A model generated the notes under the pieces. It ran no database searches. It saw only the letters and a program-made list of their open reading frames with translations, and had not been told where the DNA came from. DNA of 64,000 bases from Salvia splendens (Eukaryota > Streptophyta > Magnoliopsida > Lamiales > Lamiaceae): contig NC_056034.1 in NCBI RefSeq assembly GCF_004379255.2, positions 40,096,887 to 40,160,886 of the forward strand, in the 5' to 3' direction. The position numbers and the translations under genes are program-made. Positions 1,389 through 61,975 of the stretch are shown piece after piece. Numbering within the stretch: the stretch's first letter is position 1; the number at the start of each line of letters is the position of its first letter.

Positions 1389-1393
1389 ACATT

Positions 1394-1969
1394 TGTTGGG
1401 TCGTGATACCGCCGATCTCACACACGCACGAACGAGGAAATAAAGCACGCAAACGATATAACGTGGTTCGGTGATAATCCACCTACGTCCACGGAGAAGA
1501 TGACCGGAATCTTATTGATGGAACTCTCAATACAAGAACTTCACACTCACAATCTATCACTCTAAGCAAACGCTAGCTAGTGCAAGAATTCTCTTCTTAT
1601 TGTGTGTGTAATCTGTGTTCTGCGTCTCTCACTACTGAGCTCTATCGAGCTATTTATACAAGATGCAATCAAGAAATAAAATCCAACTAACTCTATTTCC
1701 CAAAGTTAGTTATAACCGCTGCTCGGCTAAAACCGAACTGCCATTCTTGGTTAGCAACCGAACTGCATTTCTCGGCTATCAACCGAACTGCCTTTCTCGG
1801 CTATCAACCGAACTGCCTTTCTCGGCTAGCTCAAAGCCGAGCTTTATTTCTTGATCTCTTCTCGGAGCTGCCGAGGCTCCACCACTCGATCACAACCGGA
1901 CTCAAAACCGAGCTTCATTTCCGAGCTCAGAAGCCGAGCTCCAGTAGTTTGCATGGACACACTTTCACA
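1394..1969 (-). repeat. 3' LTR of the copia element (left in the window)
   Basis: 576 bp, beginning TGTTGGGTCGTGATACC on the plus strand. It is identical by eye to 6160-6735. In element orientation this copy supplies transcript 3'-end processing. A TATAAATA word sits at 1651-1658 on the minus strand. Confidence 0.96.
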
Positions 1970-1981
1970 AATCTCCACCTT
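1970..1981 (-). promoter_or_regulatory. Polypurine tract of the copia element
   Basis: On the minus strand this reads AAGGTGGAGATT, directly abutting the 3' LTR. This is the usual position and form of the plus-strand primer in plant copia elements. It lies 56 bp after the end of the polyprotein frame. Confidence 0.85.
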
Positions 1982-2037
1982 GTCCTTGCAAAACTCCATC
2001 AATATCTGGATTCCCTTCTCAATCCTTGTTACAAGCT

Positions 2038-5000
2038 TCAACACTCCACAATCTCAACCAACTTCAAACAATGTTTGAATTTCGAAGTTGGCAGAGATTT
2101 TGTCAACATGTCTGATGCATTTTCTTCGGTAGGAACTTTCACCACATTGATCTTTCCACTTTGAATCTCATCTCTGATGAAGTGTCTCCTCACATCTATA
2201 TGCTTCGACCTCTCATGGAACATTTGATGTTTTGCTAAACATATAGCCGAGTTGCTGTCACAGTTAATCTTCACTGCTCCCAGCTTCATTCCTAAATCTT
2301 CCAAGATTCCTTGCAACCATTTTCCTTCCTTTGCAGCCTCAGTCAGAGAAATATACTCAGCTTCGGTTGTGGACAGTGCAACCACAGACTGCAAATTTGA
2401 TTTCCAGCTGATTGCTGTGCCATATAGTGTGAAGATGTAACCACTCTGAGACTTTCTGTTGTCTAAGTTAGCCGCATAATCCGAGTCACAGAATCCTTCT
2501 AGGACTTCCCTCTCCTCAGACCAAACTCCACCACCAAACTTCAAGCCAACCATGACAGACCCTTTCAGGTATTTCAGAATCCACTTTAGTGCTGCCCAGT
2601 GATCCCTACCTGGATCAGCCATATATCTGCTTGCAACGCTTATGGCATGAGCCACATCCGGCCTTGTACATATCATCAAGTACATCACACTTCCCACTAT
2701 ATTTGCATAGGGTATCCTGCTCATCTCTTCTCTATCTTCAGCTGTCTTTGGCATCTGTTCTTTACTGAGTTTGAAGCAGCTAGCCAATGGAGTGGATACT
2801 GACTTTTCACTCCTTACCTGGTATTTTTCTACCACCTTTCTGATATAATCAGCCTGAACCAATTTCAGTTCTTTCTTCTTTCTGTTCCTGACAATATCCA
2901 TACCCAAGATTCTCTTGGCTTCCCCAAGATCTTTCATATCAAATCTCTGCTTCAACTCCTCCTTGACAGACAGCAGCTCACTCTTGCTTGATCCTGCCAG
3001 CAGAATATCATCCACATACAGCAGTAGATAGGCCAGTATTAGATTTCCACTTCTCTTGACATACACGCAGCTATCAAAACTGGATCTCTCAAATGCCATC
3101 AATTCCATCTGCTCATGAAACTTCTTGTTCCACTGCCGGCTGCTTTGCTTGAGCCCATATAGGCTTTTCTTTAACAAGCAAACTTTCTTTTCTTCTCCCG
3201 GCTTCTCAAAACCCTTAGGCTGCATCATATAGATCGTTTCCTCTAGATCTCCATGCAAAAATGCTGTCTTCACATCAAGTTGATGCAGCTCCCAGTTGAA
3301 ATGAGCAGTCATGGCCAATAAGATCCGAATGGAAGTGTGCTTCACCACTGGAGAGAACACCTCTGTGTAGTCAATACCCTCTACTTGTGTGAATCCTCTA
3401 GCAACCAGCCTTGCCTTAAACCGTATGCTTTCAACTTCCCCCACCTCTACTTTCTTCTTAAACAGCCATTTGCAACTGATCAGCTTCTGAGTCCCTGGAT
3501 CAGTCACCAAAATCCAAGTCCCATTTTTCAGCAAGGACTCTATTTCTTCTTCCATGGCCTTGATCCATTTCTGACTTTCCTTGCAACTCATGGCTTCTTC
3601 ATAGGTTGAGGGTTCTGAAAACATGAGTACTTCTGCTACACATAGAGCAAAGAAGCTCATGTCATAATCTGAGAATCTGCTAGGTAGGCCTGCATTTCTT
3701 CTTGGATTTCTTCTGGCCCCTTGAGCTGCAGCAGCTTGCTGCACTGGTGACTCCTGCTCACCTGTGTTCTGAGTATGTTGAGAGCTAGTTGCTCCACCTT
3801 CTTCTTGATTTCCTGTGATCACAACATCCTCATCAGTGTCTGTTCCAGCAGATTCTCCACCAAACTCAAGGTTTTGCATTTCAGAGCTACTGCCACCACC
3901 AGAGGGCTTCCCATCATCTTTAAATGGCATCTCCTCTTCATTGAATGTCACATCTCTGCTCACAATGATATTTCTGCCTTCTCTATCCAAATTCCACAAT
4001 CTGTATCCTTTTACCCCATCTTGGTATCCCAACAACACACATTTCTTTGCCCTTGGCTCCAATTTACTCTGCTTAATGTGTGCATAAGCAGCACACCCAA
4101 ACACCTTCAAGGCTGAGTAATCACCTAGGCTTCCATACCATCTTTGATCTGGGGTCTCATTGGATATAGCAGATGATGGACACTTATTGATCAGATTAGC
4201 TGCAGTAGAGACAGCCTCTGCCCAGAATCTCTTTGGCATTCCAGAGTAGAATAGCATGCACCTCACCCTTTCTAGCAATGTCCTATTCATTCTTTCTGCC
4301 AGCCCGTTCTGTTGAGGATTTCTTGGCACGGTCCTATGCCTTCTTATCCCTTTCACCTTACAGAAACTATCAAACTCCGCAGACAGAAACTCCATGCCAT
4401 TATCAGTCCTTAGATATTTAAGCACTGAGCCCTTTTCATTCTCATATCTAGCATGCCATTCTCTAAATTTTTCAAAAGCTTGGGACTTCTCTCTTAGAAT
4501 GTAAATCCACACTTTTCTTGAGTAATCATCTATGATGGAGATGAAATACTTACCTCCACCTATGGATTCAGTTTGGGATGGCCCCCACAAGTCACTGTGG
4601 GCATACACAAATGGGGCTGATGAAGTGTGTTTCCCACCAGAAAATGGCAGCTTATTTGCCTTTCCTAGAATGCAAGATTCACATTTCTTTAGGCTGTCTG
4701 ATGCACTTAACTTCATCACTCCTTGTTTAGCCAGCTCTCTTATGCCTTTCTCACCCACATGTCCAAGCCTGGCATGCCATAGATGCAGGTCTTCTGTCTG
4801 GGCAAGATTCACAGCATCAACCACGGTTTCACCCAGCAAATAGTATAGGCTGTTCTTTCTCTGGGCCTCCATCACAATTCTGGTGCCTTTTGTTACTGTG
4901 AGGATCCCATCACCAGAGTTGAATCTGCACCCTTTTGACTCTAGCATTCCAAGAGATATTAAATTTCTCTTGATTTGAGGAATGAATCTGACTTCTGTGA

Positions 5001-6036
5001 GAGTCTTCATACTCCCATCCTTCATCCTCAATCTGATGTTCCCAATGCCCTTGACATTGCACACTTGATCATTTCCTAGCATCACTGATCCTTCCCAAGC
5101 TGATAATTCTTGGAACCAAGATTTGTGTGAGCAAATGTGGAAGGAGCACCCTGAATCCATGATCCAGCATTCTTCAATCTTGGCCCCTGAGTGGATATTC
5201 AAAGCTTCATTATCTTCAACATCCTGAGCCAGATCAGCAGTCTCTATGTTCCCAGCCTTTTCTTGCTCTTGTTTCCTCTTCCAAGCAAAACAATGCTTCT
5301 TTAAATGGCCCGGTTTCTTACAGTAGTGACAGCTTCTCTTCTCCTTCCATACTCCACCTTCTTCCTTCTTCTGGAACTTCTTCTTGGAACCCCTTTTATT
5401 CTGATTATTTTTCACATGCAGACTCTCAGCTACTGGATCAGTTTGTTTGTTATTAGCCTTCTGCGATTCCTTCATCTTCAATGCAGAATGAATCTCTTCA
5501 TAGGTGACCTTGGTTTCTCTTCCAAGAAGCACTGCATCCTTGAAGTGCTCATAACTTTTAGGCAGGGAATTGAGCAACATCAATGCCTTATCCTCATCTT
5601 TAATGACCTCATCGATATTCTCAAGATCATCTATGCATTTTCCAAACTCCTCGAGCTGTTCAGAAATGCTCTTCCCATCTGAAAACTTGAAAGCAAGAAG
5701 CCTTTGCTTCAAATGTAACCGGTTCGCCAGAGACTTGGTCATGTACAATGACTCAAGTTTCCCCCATACTCCTGCAGCCGTCTCCTCCTTGGAAACTTCC
5801 CTTAGCACCCTGTCCGTGAGGTTCAAGATCAGGGTGCTATAAGCCTTATACTGCATATCTTGAAGCCTTTGCTTCTCCTTTTCATCAGCATCAGGCTTGC
5901 CTTCTTTAGCGTCACCTTCATTCTTCAAGATATCCCATAGGCCTTGCTGCATCAAGATGGCCTTCATCTTCAGCCTCCACAGCCCAAAATCATTTCTCCC
6001 GGTGAACTTTTCCACCTCGAACTTGGCTGTAGACAT
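2038..6036 (-). CDS. Copia gag-pol polyprotein
   Basis: A single uninterrupted 1332-residue polyprotein, full length for this class. In order: gag (about 1-230); a CCHC zinc knuckle at C236-C249 (CHYCKKPGHLKKHC); aspartic protease with the DSG triad at 294-296; integrase with the zinc-binding H421/H426/C452/C455 and catalytic D482, D545 and E581; reverse transcriptase with YVDD at 1007-1010; and RNase H with D1184, E1225 and D1260. No stop, frameshift or missing catalytic residue is visible. The start is the ATG at 6036, about 100 bp inside the primer-binding site, opening MSTAKFEVEKFTGRN. The product copies and integrates the element itself and has no host role. Confidence 0.97.
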   Translation of the reverse strand: MSTAKFEVEKFTGRNDFGLWRLKMKAILMQQGLWDILKNEGDAKEGKPDADEKEKQRLQDMQYKAYSTLILNLTDRVLREVSKEETAAGVWGKLESLYMTKSLANRLHLKQRLLAFKFSDGKSISEQLEEFGKCIDDLENIDEVIKDEDKALMLLNSLPKSYEHFKDAVLLGRETKVTYEEIHSALKMKESQKANNKQTDPVAESLHVKNNQNKRGSKKKFQKKEEGGVWKEKRSCHYCKKPGHLKKHCFAWKRKQEQEKAGNIETADLAQDVEDNEALNIHSGAKIEECWIMDSGCSFHICSHKSWFQELSAWEGSVMLGNDQVCNVKGIGNIRLRMKDGSMKTLTEVRFIPQIKRNLISLGMLESKGCRFNSGDGILTVTKGTRIVMEAQRKNSLYYLLGETVVDAVNLAQTEDLHLWHARLGHVGEKGIRELAKQGVMKLSASDSLKKCESCILGKANKLPFSGGKHTSSAPFVYAHSDLWGPSQTESIGGGKYFISIIDDYSRKVWIYILREKSQAFEKFREWHARYENEKGSVLKYLRTDNGMEFLSAEFDSFCKVKGIRRHRTVPRNPQQNGLAERMNRTLLERVRCMLFYSGMPKRFWAEAVSTAANLINKCPSSAISNETPDQRWYGSLGDYSALKVFGCAAYAHIKQSKLEPRAKKCVLLGYQDGVKGYRLWNLDREGRNIIVSRDVTFNEEEMPFKDDGKPSGGGSSSEMQNLEFGGESAGTDTDEDVVITGNQEEGGATSSQHTQNTGEQESPVQQAAAAQGARRNPRRNAGLPSRFSDYDMSFFALCVAEVLMFSEPSTYEEAMSCKESQKWIKAMEEEIESLLKNGTWILVTDPGTQKLISCKWLFKKKVEVGEVESIRFKARLVARGFTQVEGIDYTEVFSPVVKHTSIRILLAMTAHFNWELHQLDVKTAFLHGDLEETIYMMQPKGFEKPGEEKKVCLLKKSLYGLKQSSRQWNKKFHEQMELMAFERSSFDSCVYVKRSGNLILAYLLLYVDDILLAGSSKSELLSVKEELKQRFDMKDLGEAKRILGMDIVRNRKKKELKLVQADYIRKVVEKYQVRSEKSVSTPLASCFKLSKEQMPKTAEDREEMSRIPYANIVGSVMYLMICTRPDVAHAISVASRYMADPGRDHWAALKWILKYLKGSVMVGLKFGGGVWSEEREVLEGFCDSDYAANLDNRKSQSGYIFTLYGTAISWKSNLQSVVALSTTEAEYISLTEAAKEGKWLQGILEDLGMKLGAVKINCDSNSAICLAKHQMFHERSKHIDVRRHFIRDEIQSGKINVVKVPTEENASDMLTKSLPTSKFKHCLKLVEIVEC

Positions 6037-6139
6037 TTCTCAAAACGAGCGGTGGGCAATCGCCAAGATCAGCTTATACAACGGAACCTCTAGACACGAA
6101 CTCACCCAGAAACCAATCAATCGGCAAATCGTGGAAGTC

Positions 6140-6157
6140 TTCCCACAGACGGCGCCA
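6140..6157 (-). promoter_or_regulatory. Primer-binding site of the copia element
   Basis: On the minus strand it reads TGGCGCCGTCTGTGGGAA, two bases inside the 5' LTR. The leading TGG complements the CCA end of a tRNA. It is not the initiator-methionine type (TGGTATCAGAGC) common in copia elements. I did not assign the tRNA. Confidence 0.75.
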
Positions 6158-6416
6158 CTTGTTGGGTCGTGATACCGCCGATCTCACACACGCACGAACG
6201 AGGAAATAAAGCACGCAAACGATATAACGTGGTTCGGTGATAATCCACCTACGTCCACGGAGAAGATGACCGGAATCTTATTGATGGAACTCTCAATACA
6301 AGAACTTCACACTCACAATCTATCACTCTAAGCAAACGCTAGCTAGTGCAAGAATTCTCTTCTTATTGTGTGTGTAATCTGTGTTCTGCGTCTCTCACTA
6401 CTGAGCTCTATCGAGC

Positions 6417-6424
6417 TATTTATA
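6417..6424 (-). promoter_or_regulatory. TATA box of the copia 5' LTR
   Basis: Perfect TATAAATA on the minus strand, with the element's transcript expected to start about 30 bp further toward lower coordinates. Confidence 0.6.
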
Positions 6425-6487
6425 CAAGATGCAATCAAGAAATAAAATCCAACTAACTCTATTTCCCAAAGTTAGTTATAACCGCTG

Positions 6488-6600
6488 CTCGGCTAAAACC
6501 GAACTGCCATTCTTGGTTAGCAACCGAACTGCATTTCTCGGCTATCAACCGAACTGCCTTTCTCGGCTATCAACCGAACTGCCTTTCTCGGCTAGCTCAA
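6488..6600 (-). repeat. Tandem repeats in the U3 part of the copia LTR
   Basis: Four consecutive units of about 25 bp are built around TTCGGTT and AGCCGAG (minus-strand reading). They lie just upstream of the TATA box. The left LTR has the same array at about 1722-1834. In Tnt1 of tobacco, repeated U3 boxes act as stress-responsive enhancers; a similar job here is inference. Confidence 0.7.
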
Positions 6601-6740
6601 AGCCGAGCTTTATTTCTTGATCTCTTCTCGGAGCTGCCGAGGCTCCACCACTCGATCACAACCGGACTCAAAACCGAGCTTCATTTCCGAGCTCAGAAGC
6701 CGAGCTCCAGTAGTTTGCATGGACACACTTTCACAACATT

Positions 6741-8065: not shown

Positions 8066-8158
8066 TAATGCTATGGAGGAAATCGGGTTTATAGGCTACT
8101 TTGCCTTTAAAATAACGTAAATGTACTCATTTTGTTATCTATTCCATAAATGGGAAAA

Positions 8159-8399
8159 ACGCCACTCTCGTTGGCGTGTTTTAAGTGAAAACGCCACCCG
8201 TATTGGCGTTTTACAACGTATGTGTCGTCGTATTGCATGTACGTTGAAAAACGCCGACGTGGTTGGCGTTTGAACGAAAAACGCCAATCCCACTGGCGTG
8301 TTTCAAAAAATGCCAATTCGGGTGGCGTTTTTCATGCCTTCCGCCGTGAAAAAAAGGCCAAAAATTATCCCAAGGTATACACGCCAATGGGATTGGCGT
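8159..8399. repeat. Array of six 19-bp palindromes, left arm
   Basis: ACGCCA-N7-TGGCGT units occur at 8159-8177, 8191-8209, 8251-8269, 8281-8299, 8310-8328 and 8381-8399. Two units carry single changes in the outer words (ACGCCG; ATGCCA). The seven central bases differ between units, but the length stays at 19 bp. Spacing between units is irregular (10-60 bp). Confidence 0.9.
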
Positions 8400-9271
8400 G
8401 TTTCAACCTTTCGTTAAGGCAAACTTTCGTTCAGGCATTTCATCAAACACTTGGAGGGCAAACTTTCGTTCAGCATTTCATCAAACAGTTGGTTCAAAAT
8501 ATTTAACAGTGCTTGAAGACTTGAGTCGACGATGACCCACAGCCTCATTTGCCCCGTTGATCACGTAATGTATATATAGACGTCTTCACAATCCGAAAAT
8601 TGTTTATTTTTATCATTCAACCTCAAAATATTTAACTTATAATGAGCTGAAATAGACTTAGAATGAAAGATGGAACGACTTGGACCAAAAGTATAGTGAT
8701 GATACATACGGACCCGAGGAGCAGCCAAGAATGACCAAAATAATTCGGACTTTAATTTGATTAATTATAATAATATTTAATCATAATATGGTCAAAACAT
8801 CTCTGATCATTAATTTTTTATGCAAACGTTAGATATGAAACAAAATATTTTATGATTAGAAATGAACACACTAGTGTGTGTGTGTGTCTTGACCAATAAG
8901 TAAATTGGTTAATGTTATAACCGTTAAAAATTTATGTTTCTTTACCAATATAACTGTTAATGCTTTACCCATGTGGATGACAAAAATCTATTTTTTTCCA
9001 AATATTGACTATTCACCCATGTGGATGAAATAAACCTGTTTTTTTATCGTTAAATGATAAAAATAAACAATTTTCAGATTGTGAAGACGTCTATATATAC
9101 ATTATGTGATCAACGGGGCAAATGAGGCTGTGGGTCATCGTCGACTCAAGTCTTCAAGCACTGTTAAATATTTTGAACCAACTGTTTGATGAAATGCATG
9201 AACGAAAGTTTGCCCTCCAAGTGTTTGATGAAATGCCTGAACGAAAGTTTGCCTGAACGAAAGGTTGAAAC

Positions 9272-9512
9272 ACGCCAATCCCATTGGCGTGTATACCTTG
9301 GGATAATTTTTGGCCTTTTTTTCACGGCGGAAGGCATGAAAAACGCCACCCGAATTGGCGTTTTTTGAAACACGCCAGTGGGATTGGCGTTTTTCGTTTA
9401 AACGCCAACCACGTCGGCGTTTTTCAACGTACATGCCATACGACGACACATACGTTGTAAAACGCCAATACGGGTGGCGTTTTCACTTAAAACACGCCAA
9501 CGAGAGTGGCGT
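9272..9512. repeat. Array of six 19-bp palindromes, right arm
   Basis: Mirror image of the left array: units at 9272-9290, 9343-9361, 9372-9390, 9402-9420, 9462-9480 and 9494-9512, all 19 bp. One unit that is degenerate in the left arm (ATGCCA, 8310-8328) is perfect here at 9343-9361. Confidence 0.9.
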
Positions 9513-9605
9513 TTTTCCCATTTATGGAATAGATAACAAAATGGGTACATTTACGTTATTTTAAAGGCAAAGTAGCCTATAAACCCGATTTCCTCTAATG
9601 CTATG

Positions 9606-9900: not shown

Positions 9901-10079
9901 ATGGCTAATCCGGTTAACAAAACACTAATTAACGGTTGACTGTCGAAAATTGATGACACCGTAAAAAAAGGACCAGGTCGACACGGATTTCATTTGTTAT
10001 GGACCCGTTTTTCAAAAAGTGAATGTTTTTGACCAAATTCGTATTTCGATTATATGTTTAGGACCAAAATTGACCTTTA
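9901..10079 (-). repeat. Right arm of the outer inverted repeat
   Basis: Reverse complement partner of 77-254. Its outer edge reads AAAATTGACCTTTA on the plus strand. Confidence 0.75.
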
Positions 10080-10807
10080 CTTATAACTACTCAAGTTTCT
10101 GTAAGCTTTATACCAAATAGTTATTAGGAACAAAATTATCATTGGCTCACCGAGACACGATTTTATAAGTAACAATTAGAAAATATGTCTCATTAATTTA
10201 TGAGATGTTTATTAATTGTAGGTATTTAAATTATAAAGTTTAGTTAAATTCTAATCGATCCCTTGAAGTTTAAAATTGGAATTTTCCTATTTATATACAA
10301 AATGTTGTCTTTAAATGTTATTCAAAATTACGAGTTTCATTAAAATGGAGTATTTTTTTTCTTTTATTTTCTTTTCTTATTTTAATAAAATTTTCATATT
10401 GAATATCATACATTTTGAATACAAAGGGGACAATTGAGAAATTGATACTTTATGATTTAATAATCCAATTTTAAATTTCACGGGACGAACCAAAGGTTGA
10501 CTGAATTTCATGCGTTAAATACATTAATTGAGATATTTGCCAATCGATAAACGTTTATTTCACAATTATATAACCGGCCATAATTAAGGTGCATGCGACG
10601 TGCCAACGAATGCTCAATAAGTAGAAATAACATGAATCTCGTTGACATAGTTTTGATATTGAAAAACAAAGAACCCTTTGATTAGAAGAAAACATCGAAA
10701 ATACATGTTATTGGAAATACAAAGTCGAAGAAACAAGAAACAAAATCACACGAAACAACAGTACTTTTCAAGCATGCATGGCTCATGGGTGTGTATAATT
10801 GGAGGTT
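10080..10807. other. Intergenic spacer
   Basis: AT-rich, no gene seen. The end nearest the PR-10 frame presumably holds its 3' untranslated region. Confidence 0.4.
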
Positions 10808-14544: not shown

Positions 14545-16383
14545 ATGGCTGACACAAGGAATAAGTTCACGGCCGCGGCCGCCCTCGCCATCCTCCTCCT
14601 CGCGGCCTTCATGATCTCCGCTGCCAACGCCGCCGGGGACCCCCCAACGGAGGCCCCTAAAGAAGACAAAAAGGAGGGCGAGAAAGGCGAGTCCGGAACG
14701 GCGTCCACATTCTGCGAGAGCACCGACTACAAGGAGACGTGCCACAAGAGTCTAGAGAAGGCCAACGGCACTGAGCCTAAGGACCTCATCAAGGCTGCGT
14801 TCGACGCCGCCATAACCGAGCTCGAGAGCTCCATCAAGAACTCCGAAGCCTACAAGACCGTCCAGTCCGACCCAATGACCGAGAAGGCCCTCGCCGTGTG
14901 CGAGGAGGTTCTCAACATCGCCATCGACGATCTCAGAAGGTCGTTCGAGAAGGTCGATCAGCTCGACACCGGGACGCTTAAAAACAACATCGCCGACCTC
15001 AGGAACTGGCTCAGCGCCACCATTGCGCACAAGGAGACTTGCATCGACGCATTCGACAACACCACGGGCGAAACCGGGGCGAAGGTGAGGGATCTTTTGA
15101 AGACCTCGGGCGAGCTTTTGAGTAATGGTCTTGCGATGATTTCTCAATTGCAAAAGTTCGTTTCGTCGATTGATTTTGGGAAAATCGCGGAGGGGATTAA
15201 AGGCCTCACCGGCGGTGGTGAAAAGAGGGCTCTGTTTAGCAGTGATGAGGAGGTTCCGGATTTCGTGGAGTCGCACGCGAGGAGACTGATGGCGGCTGGA
15301 CCGGCGACGTTGAAGCCGGATGCGACGGTGGCGCAGGACGGGAGCGGGCAGTTCAAGACTATTAGTGAGGCGCTGGCTACGTTGCCTCCTAAGAATACCA
15401 AACCGTTTGTGGTTTTTGTGAAGGCCGGTTTGTATAAGGAGTATGTCGTGGTGCCGAAGGGCATGAACAACGTTTCGATCATCGGAGAGGGGCCGGAGAA
15501 GACGAGGATCACTGGTGACAAGTGTGTCAAGGGAGGGACACCCACCTTCCAGTCTGCAACTCTAAGTGAGTATCCTCTATTATATTCCTATTAAAGCATG
15601 ATGAATTCAAATTACGGATTTCACATCGATTGTGCAAGGCAATTACAAATTGTCGGCCGGTTATGCAAAATCTAACCATTTTTCACCGCAGCCGTGACCG
15701 GGGAAAGCTTCATGGCGAAGGACATAGCGGTGGAGAACACGGCCCCCGAGAGCCAGGCTGTGGCACTACGTATCAACGGCGACATGGGCGTGTTCCAAAA
15801 CGTCCACCTCGACGGCTTCCAAGACACCCTCTACTCCCACAGCTACAAGCAGTTCTACCGCGACTGCCGCATCAGCGGCACCATCGACTTCATCTTCGGT
15901 GACGCAAAGACCATCCTCCAAAACTGCGAGATCGTAGTGCGCAAGCCGCTCCCGAACCAGGCGTGCATGGTGACAGCGCAGGGGCGCAAGGACAAGAAGG
16001 GAGACGGCGTGATTGTCATCCAGGGCGGCACCATCACGGCTGAGAAGGCCTTCGTCGAGGCCAACCCGCCGCACGAGGCCTTCCTCGGCCGGCCCTGGAA
16101 GGAGTTCTCGAGGACGATCATCATGCAGGCAAACATCGACGCGTGCATCCAGCCCACCGGGTGGTCGCCGTGGATGGGGACATTCGCACTCAACACGCTC
16201 TACTACGGGGAGTGGGCCAACACCGGGCCAGGGGCGGACCTGTCGAAGCGGGTCAAGTGGAAGGGTATTAAGAAGATGACGCCGGAGATTGCGGCGGGAT
16301 TCACAGCTCAGAAGGTGTTCGTTTATGATGATTGGATCAAGAAGACTGGAGTTCCGTATGAGGCTGGGATGCTGCCTAAATAA
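14545..16383 (+). CDS. Pectinesterase with N-terminal inhibitor domain (group 2 PME)
   Basis: Removes methyl esters from cell-wall homogalacturonan. Two exons: 14545-15565 and 15692-16383, in phase, 570 residues. Residues 1-29 are a signal peptide or anchor. A PME-inhibitor-like pro-region has four cysteines (C57, C66, C119, C166) and is followed by an RRLM processing site (246-249), where subtilases cleave in the Golgi. The catalytic domain runs from about 255 to the end and keeps Q362, Q384, D385, D406 and R474 of LGRPW, with the spacing of the carrot enzyme. The disulphide pair C399/C419 is present. The coding sequence is markedly GC-rich beside its surroundings, notably in exon 2. The paralogue within this large family cannot be fixed from sequence alone. 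Confidence 0.95.
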
Positions 16384-40745: not shown

Positions 40746-40753
40746 ATAATACT

Positions 40754-41599
40754 TAGGGCAGAGTAAAAATACCGAAATACCGAAATATCGCCCTTACCGT
40801 ATCGAAAAAATAACGAAAATACCGGATTTTCGGTATACCGCAATTTTCGGTAAGGTATCATACCTTACCGATTTATTTCGGTACGGTAACGGTAAGAATT
40901 TCATATACCGAGGTATATCGGGGTATACCAAAAATACGGTATATACCGTAATTTTAGGTATATACCGAAAATATGGTATATACCATAATTTTCGGTATAT
41001 ACCGATATCAATATATGCCAAATTATATCAAGTAAATTCATACTTTTACAAAACAAATAAATATTTACATGTAGAAATCAAATCTTGCCTCATTATAGTT
41101 GTCGGGTAATCATGTAAATATAAAATCAAATAAACTCAATTAGGAAAACTTGATATCGTTGAATCAATTAGTTTCAAATAAATATAAGATTTTAGTTAAT
41201 TTAGTTCCAAACAAATATCGGTGAACGTTATGTGATTGCGTGGAGTTTAATTGTTGCAGTTTTTTTATTGAATATATTTGAGTTTGATTAAATTTCATGT
41301 TTTCTAAGTATTTTTGAAATTTTATTTTCATTTGTGTTTGTATTTAGAATTATTTACAAAATAATGATACTTTGGTATGTCGTATTGTAGTCCGATATAC
41401 CGCAAAAGTACGGTATACCGAATTTAGATATGACATACTGAAAATAAGGTATGGTATTGATATTGAAATTTGTCATACCGAAAATAAGGTATACCGAATT
41501 TTCGGTTAGGTAAAGGTATGATTTTTTCTCATATCGAATTTTCGGTAAGGTATACGGTATGATGGTTTCGATAAGGTATACCGTACCTACCCACCCCTA
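40754..41599. mobile_element. Non-autonomous hAT-type element with GGTATACCG-rich interior
   Basis: A perfect 8-bp duplication ATAATACT lies at 40746-40753 and 41600-41607, the hAT signature. Ends are TAGGGCAGAG and, reading inward from the right, TAGGGGTGGG. Both flanks of the 846-bp interior are dense with short palindromic words (GGTATACC, CGGTAT, ACCGAAA). There is no transposase; short open frames come from the repeats. Confidence 0.88.
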
Positions 41600-41607
41600 A
41601 TAATACT

Positions 41608-42080
41608 GTTCTAAGATGAGGGAAAATTCAAATTTTGGATGAGTTTGGAAAAAAATTTCCATTGAAGGGATTTTTTTTTTTGCTTTCTATAAATTGGAAA
41701 AATGTCAATCTTATTGGCGTGTTTAAATACGTCATATCATTGGCATTTTTTCAGATTATGTACGTACGTATATAGTTATTTTTCTTTCTAAAAATATAAT
41801 TGAAACCGGTAATATACATCTTTCTGCTAGAATGGTTGGCTTAGCTTTTGTCAATAAAACTATAAACACCTTTATATGCTACACTAAACTTTATGCCATA
41901 TCATCCAATAACCAAAATACCAATTGATTATTACCAAAGCTATCAACAAAGAAAACTCCACAATTTTAACAAAGGCAATAAATTACTACTGTACTATCAA
42001 TCAGTAGCACTGAGACATATGGCTCAATGCCCAATATATAAAATCCTAAAATAAAAAAAATGAAAAAAAACCATTTGTTA
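41608..42080. other. Spacer with a palindrome-motif remnant
   Basis: 41702-41720 reads ATGTCA-N7-TGGCGT and 41729-41746 ACGTCA-N6-TGGCAT, degenerate relatives of the palindromes in the fold-back element at 8-9.6 kb. No gene seen. Confidence 0.5.
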
Positions 42081-61273: not shown

Positions 61274-61590
61274 ATAGATTAAAAATGGGTGATAATCATC
61301 TGAATAAGAAATGGTAAGTATGTTTGTGGAAGTAGTGGAATTTCTTTCACGATAACTATACCAAGTGCTTTTTTTTCCAACAGGTTAAGGAGAGGAAGAA
61401 AACAGAATGCTTAGGTACATTTTTGCGCGAGAGAAAAAGATAGAGATCGAAACTGAAAAAAACACTTATATATATTGTTGAAATGGACAGTTGATTAACT
61501 ATTAAGTGTCACAATTACGAAGAGTTATGTATACAAGGCTTAAGTAGAATTAATCGAATGATAATATTATATTTAATTAAATAATAGTAC

Positions 61591-61975
61591 TTAATAATCA
61601 CGGTGTTTTCAATAGAAAAACATAGCTAAGACGGAAACACGACTATATGAAATTACGAGAATATCTTGATTAAATATAGTTGTACTTAATAATCATGGCG
61701 TTTTCAATAGAAAAACATAGCTAAAGTATACGGAAACACGACTATATGAAATTATGAGAAAATCTTGATTAAGTATAGTAGTACCTAATAATCATGGCGT
61801 TTTCAATAGAAAAACATAGCTAAGATATATGGAAACCCGACTATATGAAATTATGAGAATATCTTGACTAAATATAGTAGTATTTAATAATCATGGAGTT
61901 TTCAATAGAAAGACATAGCTAATATATACGGAAACATACGGAAACATGATTATATAAAATTATGAGAACATCTTA
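61591..61975. repeat. Minisatellite, four units of 95-104 bp
   Basis: Each unit starts TAATAATCA and includes GTTTTCAATAGAAA, ACATAGCTAA, CGGAAAC and ACTATATGAAATTA (variants). Units begin at 61592, 61687, 61786 and 61885. The last unit has a small internal duplication of ATACGGAAAC. Confidence 0.9.

Follow-up and report, generated by a model that had tools for sequence, protein, structure and literature searches.

A putative Mutator-like fold-back element of Salvia splendens whose arms carry arrays of fixed-gap interrupted dyads

In many DNA transposons, the terminal inverted repeats (TIRs) or subterminal regions contain short motifs that recur in direct or inverted orientation, as set out in the accessible text of a report on tomato Mutator-like elements (MULEs), which also gives 9 to 11 bp as the length of MULE target-site duplications and describes Mutator TIRs as containing MURA binding sites and promoters (PMC3310237). 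In Aedes aegypti, 10 of 12 long-TIR families have subterminal tandem repeats of 9 to 15 bp, and Muta1, which its authors class as a type 2 fold-back, has nine 12-bp subterminal repeats in its TIRs (PMC5225508). For Tm1, a Mutator/Foldback family of root-knot nematodes, the commonest internal unit is reported to be 14 bp long, and duplications of 8 to 10 bp were found in 45 of 53 complete elements (PMC3169594). Two further systems concern protein binding: for VANC21, motif density matters for localization (PMC5735166), and FHY3 and FAR1, which are described as derived from MULEs, have CACGCGC as their binding site and assemble into homo- or heterodimers (PMC6000157). Our searches returned no literature on Mutator or other transposable elements in Salvia splendens. 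To our knowledge, transposase recognition has been mapped for few MULEs, and the cause of repeat build-up in fold-back arms is not settled.

The fold-back element described here lies in a 64-kb stretch of S. splendens DNA (the window, to which all coordinates refer), where it occupies positions 8076 to 9595 (1,520 bp) and fills, together with its target-site duplication, the segment from 8066 to 9605. The same 10-mer, TAATGCTATG, flanks it on both sides (8066 to 8075 and 9596 to 9605). Local alignment of both ends delimited a left arm of 546 bp (8076 to 8621, plus strand), with outer end GAGGAAATCGGG, and a right arm of 547 bp (9049 to 9595, minus strand) that mirrors it; over 547 alignment columns, the arms differ by eight substitutions (six of them transitions) and one indel. 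They make up 1,093 of the 1,520 bp and enclose a central loop of 427 bp (8622 to 9048, plus strand). With a 10-bp duplication, both ends read GAGGAAATCGGG and show perfect complementarity right from base 1, GAGGAAATCGGGTTTATAGGC inward, and a length of 10 bp is therefore better than one of 9. The initial annotation, made from the same DNA, had recognized the fold-back architecture with its long, near-perfect TIRs, and rightly so; it had also called the duplication perfect, as it is, albeit with a length of 9 bp, and the additional base pair moves the start of the element from the 8075 proposed there to 8076. Its long inverted repeat was likewise real, with arms slightly longer than the 545 bp given.

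From the outside in, each arm consists of 83 bp without palindromes, a palindrome array (arm positions 84 to 324), a direct repeat, and a TATA-like word, and thus has the long, internally repetitive make-up of FB-like elements. The direct repeat, detected with Tandem Repeats Finder, has a 38-bp unit in about 1.9 copies in the left arm (8418 to 8492, plus strand) and a 39-bp unit in its right-arm counterpart (9178 to 9253). The TATA-like word TATATATAG, identified by word match only, points inward in the left arm (8571 to 8579, plus strand) and has its mirror, by the same sort of match, at 9091 to 9099 in the right. Among stop-to-stop frames of at least 150 amino acids, none overlapped the element, and searches of the 64-kb window with Rfam (at gathering score) and ARAGORN yielded 0 matches and 0 genes, respectively. 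The loop contains an imperfect 34-bp direct repeat with ACCCATGTGGATGA (8964 to 9045), the two copies being 48 bp apart; the resemblance of the loop to the right flank (ATGTGGATG), with a score of 18 compared with 18.4 on average in shuffles, was set aside as chance. We also disregarded scans of the element for bacterial-type promoters (three promoter-like sites; shuffle mean of 5.2) and terminators (six sites, four of which are a palindrome unit followed by T; shuffle mean of 1.6), both being meaningless for a plant.

Since no transposase was found in or linked to the element, we infer its membership in the MULEs from the long, near-perfect TIRs and the perfect 10-bp duplication, which falls within the 9 to 11 bp reported for the group (PMC3310237, as far as its accessible text goes). 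The arms, at 546 and 547 bp, are slightly above the 100 to 500 bp that is typical of long MULE TIRs. The placement of the element near Mutator-like elements, already proposed in the initial annotation, is consistent with both features.

The palindrome array is built from a 19-bp interrupted dyad, ACGCCA-N7-TGGCGT, of which the element holds 12 sites, six per arm, nine of them exact and three with one mismatch (starts at 8159, 8191, 8251, 8281, 8310, 8381, 9272, 9343, 9372, 9402, 9462, and 9494). In the left arm, these are unit 1 (8159 to 8177; ACGCCA-CTCTCGT-TGGCGT), unit 2 (8191 to 8209; center CCCGTAT), unit 3 (8251 to 8269; one mismatch, ACGCCG), unit 4 (8281 to 8299; center ATCCCAC), unit 5 (8310 to 8328; ATGCCA here and ACGCCA in the right arm), and unit 6 (8381 to 8399; center ATGGGAT). 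All twelve of the palindromes claimed previously thus exist, but only six are independent, because the second arm copies the first. Allowing up to two mismatches, the window contains 13 matches (the 13th at 41702), compared with a mean of 0.66 and a maximum of 3 in 100 shuffles, and exact sites, of which the element has nine, appeared in none of 3,000 element-sized and none of 60 window-sized Markov simulations. With the 6-letter words allowed to lie up to 28 bp apart, the shorter pair ACGCC...GGCGT was found 11 times in the element, always with a gap of 7 bp (the 12th site has ATGCC instead of ACGCC); at longer distances, the pair is also present, between different units. Neighboring units, meanwhile, are separated by 13, 41, 11, 10, and 52 bp. 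With its gap fixed at 7 bp and the distances between units varying, the site is a fixed-gap dyad within a looser frame.

The two half-words of the dyad and its center are unevenly conserved. The right arm has 1 non-consensus base among 72 half-word positions (the left arm has 2) and 14 among the 60 positions formed by the five bases on each side of a unit, whereas its centers, with units oriented as given, deviate at 19 of 42 (Fisher test of half-words versus centers, P = 3e-9), a comparison in which the fixed orientation of reversible units overstates the divergence of the centers. With the units turned in favor of the centers, 13 of 42 center positions against 1 of 72 half-word positions are changed (P = 6e-6), and with units 5 and 6 dropped, 9 of 28 against 1 of 48 (P = 4e-4), figures to be read in the light of a half-word conservation that is partly ascertained, the units having been found via their half-words. 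Because about a third of the center positions have changed but 71 of 72 half-word positions are intact, tandem amplification alone does not explain the array. Either the half-words and their gap have been selected, or the stems have been homogenized more than the loops, and the present data fit both. Between the arms, there is one substitution in 72 half-word positions and none in 42 center positions, counts too few to speak to recent constraint.

The arrangement of the units carries traces of how the array arose. Start-to-start intervals within an arm are 32, 60, 30, 29, and 71 bp, four of the five deviating by no more than 2 bp from a multiple of 30, a period picked after viewing the data. 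At the place expected from this phase between units 2 and 3 (8220 to 8238), there is a weak candidate for a decayed unit, matching 7 of 12 half-word positions in its right-arm version, a score that three other places in the arm also reach. In addition, the center of unit 2 is an inverted copy of that of unit 5, and the center of unit 4 is one of that of unit 6 (6 of 7 bases in each pair); two such inverted pairs occurred in 0 of 4,000 random sets. Across all 15 unit pairs, the mean best-orientation identity of the centers is 3.6 of 7 bases, compared with 2.4 for random 7-mers, and yet 13 of the 15 pairs have at most 4 of 7 center bases in common in either orientation while agreeing at 11 or 12 of 12 half-word bases. 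The roughly 30-bp step and the units repeated in inverted form suggest that the array grew by duplication as well as by inverted copying. The idea that the centers vary freely does not survive the two inverted pairs and the raised overall identity, and the spacing, described as irregular, is not wholly so, four of five intervals fitting the step. Similarly, the argument against simple tandem amplification is borne out by the better-kept half-words and weakened by the phase and the inverted copies.

Elsewhere in the window, a BLAST search with the element and its arms recovered a 43-bp block (41685 to 41727) with 81% identity to positions 8142 to 8184 (42.8 bits, compared with 35.6 for the best of 60 shuffles). 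This block is part of a decayed relative at 41618 to 41755 (plus strand; left end uncertain), in which a possible end, GAGGGAAAATTC, is followed by two units: ATGTCA-ATCTTAT-TGGCGT at 41702, with a length of 19 bp, and, 27 bp after the start of the first, ACGTCA-N6-TGGCAT at 41729, with a length of 18 bp. The distance from GAGGGAAAATTC to the first unit is 84 bp, compared with 83 bp in the main element, although the alignment of this outer part is weak (equalled or beaten by 2.2% of 15,354 other placements), and the end is only suggestive. Relative to units 1 and 2, 4 of 24 half-word positions differ, all by C-to-T or G-to-A changes; between unit 1 and its counterpart, two of 12 half-word bases and three of seven center bases differ. 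The total length of 19 bp, said to be invariable, is kept throughout the main element and lost in the relative's second unit, so that copies breaking this length, which the initial annotation had itself named as grounds for abandoning its reading, have in part turned up, as one 19-bp and one 18-bp unit. The 18-bp unit counts against a strong 19-bp rule, though little weight can be placed on a decayed copy in either direction. The relative has no established right end: the region from 41618 folds strongly as a small fold-back (RNA z score of -7.6), but its inverted alignment was equalled in 19% of 881 neighboring-segment controls, and a search for duplications of 8 to 10 bp with at most one mismatch gave a single candidate (8 bp), implying slightly different ends. 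With its weak terminal match, this partial relative was the only candidate in the window for a further copy with the same ends.

A second palindrome-rich DNA element ends 18 bp short of the relative's possible end. This non-autonomous element (40754 to 41599), which we take from its general features to belong to the hAT superfamily, has the ends TAGGGCAGAG and CCCACCCCTA and a perfect 8-bp duplication, ATAATACT (40746 to 40753 and 41600 to 41607), and its outer parts (about 40766 to 41004 and 41405 to 41585) are rich in palindromes of the GGTATACC and GGTATATACC type. Closer to the fold-back, an LTR retrotransposon (about 1390 to 6720) with identical 300-nt blocks at 1390 to 1689 and 6156 to 6455 and an uninterrupted 1,333-amino-acid frame on the minus strand, of copia type by the look of its polyprotein, is probably a recent insertion. 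An inverted repeat of about 180 bp, some 80% alike (69 to 251 and 9905 to 10086), encloses both this retrotransposon and the fold-back; it may be a large nested transposon, or else a common repeat that is present twice independently. The window further contains a tandem array with a 99-bp unit (61569 to 61936; 3.8 copies, 88% matches) and a pectinesterase frame (14545 to 15570) that is 100% identical over all 342 residues to S. splendens SASPL_109383, a match in one gene that points to plant nuclear DNA of this species or of a very close one.

Among described systems, Muta1 and the Aedes MULEs resemble the element in their long TIRs, outer motif, short subterminal repeat array, and many non-autonomous derivatives; their duplications, however, are 8 to 9 bp long, compared with 10 bp here, and Muta1 has 12-bp tandem repeats with 3- to 4-bp spacers in place of 19-bp interrupted dyads with changing centers and starts mostly about 30 bp apart (PMC5225508). 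Tm1 shares the composite TIRs with internal repeats, the mostly non-autonomous copies, and the duplications of mostly 8 to 10 bp, but its tandem units vary in number and length, and the arms of one element may differ in repeat number (PMC3169594). According to the same report, through which alone we know of it, FARE of Arabidopsis is likewise a plant fold-back and contains a MULE-domain transposase, and Mcmar of Meloidogyne chitwoodi is a mariner-like element that also has long TIRs of direct repeats and palindromes but belongs to the Tc1/mariner superfamily (PMC3169594). VANDAL21 and its VANC21 protein offer a dense short motif in the non-coding parts of a MULE-type element that acts via a protein encoded by the element itself; unlike the dyads here, the YAGTATTAY motif is arrayed in a single orientation, and the string "palindrom" is absent from the accessible text of that report (PMC5735166). 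VANDALs have degenerate TIRs, the opposite of the fold-back here (PMC10398659), and the SIRC repeats of Arabidopsis are described as direct repeats, not dyads (PMC10342631). The array in the present element is dense too, its binding by a protein being putative, and VANC21 would appear to be the best precedent found in plant MULE-type elements for dense motifs that serve to address a protein. A resemblance between the FHY3/FAR1 site CACGCGC and ACACGCCA is only a lead. In the literature searched on fold-back and Mutator-like elements, we found no fixed-gap interrupted dyad array with changing centers; repeat-filled MULE TIRs are already published (Muta1 and Tm1), and the dyads look like a variant rather than a new kind. 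Additionally, the extended palindrome AAACGCCAN7TGGCGTTT was present in at least 118 stretches of bacterial or archaeal genome contigs and in 26 of viral contigs, with one exact palindrome per locus and no cluster in the 144 loci listed; these single palindromes were taken as chance matches rather than relatives, and the collections concerned say nothing on plant relatives.

How the array came to look as it does can be explained in several ways. The palindromes might have no binding function and be a by-product of mutation in a fold-back, in which stems pair with one another when the DNA is replicated and template switching maintains their likeness, the loops escaping correction, an explanation that we consider a serious possibility, though on balance doubtful. 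The inverted copies 2/5 and 4/6 include the center, as template switching would leave them, and the 30-bp phase fits as well. Because the array consists of self-complementary units, moreover, the left arm folds strongly over its outer 345 nt (-139.1 kcal/mol, compared with a mean of -88.7 in 100 shuffles; z score of -10.7), and a hairpin is predicted for every one of its six units in single-stranded DNA form (energies of -6.2 to -10.8 kcal/mol; z scores of -2.7 to -6.6). Copying of this sort should, however, bring the loop along, which the low center agreement of 13 of the 15 unit pairs speaks against, and by itself it leaves the constant 7-bp gap unexplained.

Hairpin formation could also matter at the level of RNA, with read-through transcription yielding a hairpin of about 546 bp that is processed into small interfering RNAs (siRNAs) of 21 to 24 nt silencing the family, the palindromes being incidental. 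Near-perfect arms would indeed give long double-stranded RNA, and a long hairpin RNA from both arms is possible for any element with such arms, but this account, which we regard as improbable, neither needs nor explains the palindromes. In a 265-nt segment of the right arm, permuting the centers among units gave a fold equal to or better than that of the actual order in 36% of 400 trials, and random centers did so in 5.3% of 300; the permutations of this segment gave no sign that the centers are arranged for a hairpin. With the order of the centers making so little difference, selection for hairpins was dropped as the main explanation, and the hairpin-forming RNA role suggested in the initial annotation gains no specific support. 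Nor do the CpG columns, which hold three of the eight inter-arm substitutions (70 of 546 columns being CpG), depart significantly from expectation (P = 0.07). Finally, the fold-back might belong to another superfamily altogether, being, for example, P/Galileo-like or hAT-like. Duplications in those groups measure 7 to 8 bp (8 bp in the hAT superfamily), against the perfect 10 bp found here, and although no transposase is seen and the fold-back structure is common to unrelated transposase classes (PMC3169594), we hold this to be very unlikely.

The reading that we prefer, tentatively and at a probability just short of even, is that of a non-autonomous Mutator-like fold-back, mobilized in trans, whose composite arms carry putative dyad sites for protein binding that have been amplified and partly homogenized. 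A transposase encoded elsewhere would move the element, and the 19-bp interrupted dyads, lying outward of the TATA-like word inside each arm, would be bound by a dimeric protein, which could be the transposase of the family or an accessory anti-silencing protein acting like VANC. Several sites per arm could raise the occupancy of both ends, and the sites may have been multiplied by slippage, in steps of about 30 bp, and by template switching between units. Protein binding by the dyads is plausible, judging from their sequence: in the right arm, half-words are kept at 71 of 72 positions (70 of 72 in the left) but centers at only 23 of 42 (29 of 42 with units turned to favor the centers) and the five-base flanks at 46 of 60, and the relative retains the context of unit 1 and a 19-bp unit at a nearly equal offset (84 versus 83 bp). 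Against the preferred reading, there are only six independent units, two pairs of which are copies; the similarity of the centers is such as common descent would give; and one of the relative's two units is 18 bp long. We know of no protein that binds ACGCCA/TGGCGT. We speculate further, and consider it rather unlikely as it stands, that a dimeric protein encoded by a transposable element reads the two half-words at a fixed center-to-center distance of 13 bp, ignoring the seven bases between them, and that the array is a fast-evolving address label with which one MULE family draws its own transposase or an anti-silencing protein to long TIRs otherwise prone to siRNA silencing.

As the arm combines a fixed-gap dyad, changing centers, and inverted copying, selection for binding sites and homogenization of hairpins could be compared across aligned copies of the family. 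Should the dyad turn out to be bound, it would represent, in a plant other than Arabidopsis, a dimer-type equivalent of the motif arrays recognized by VANC.
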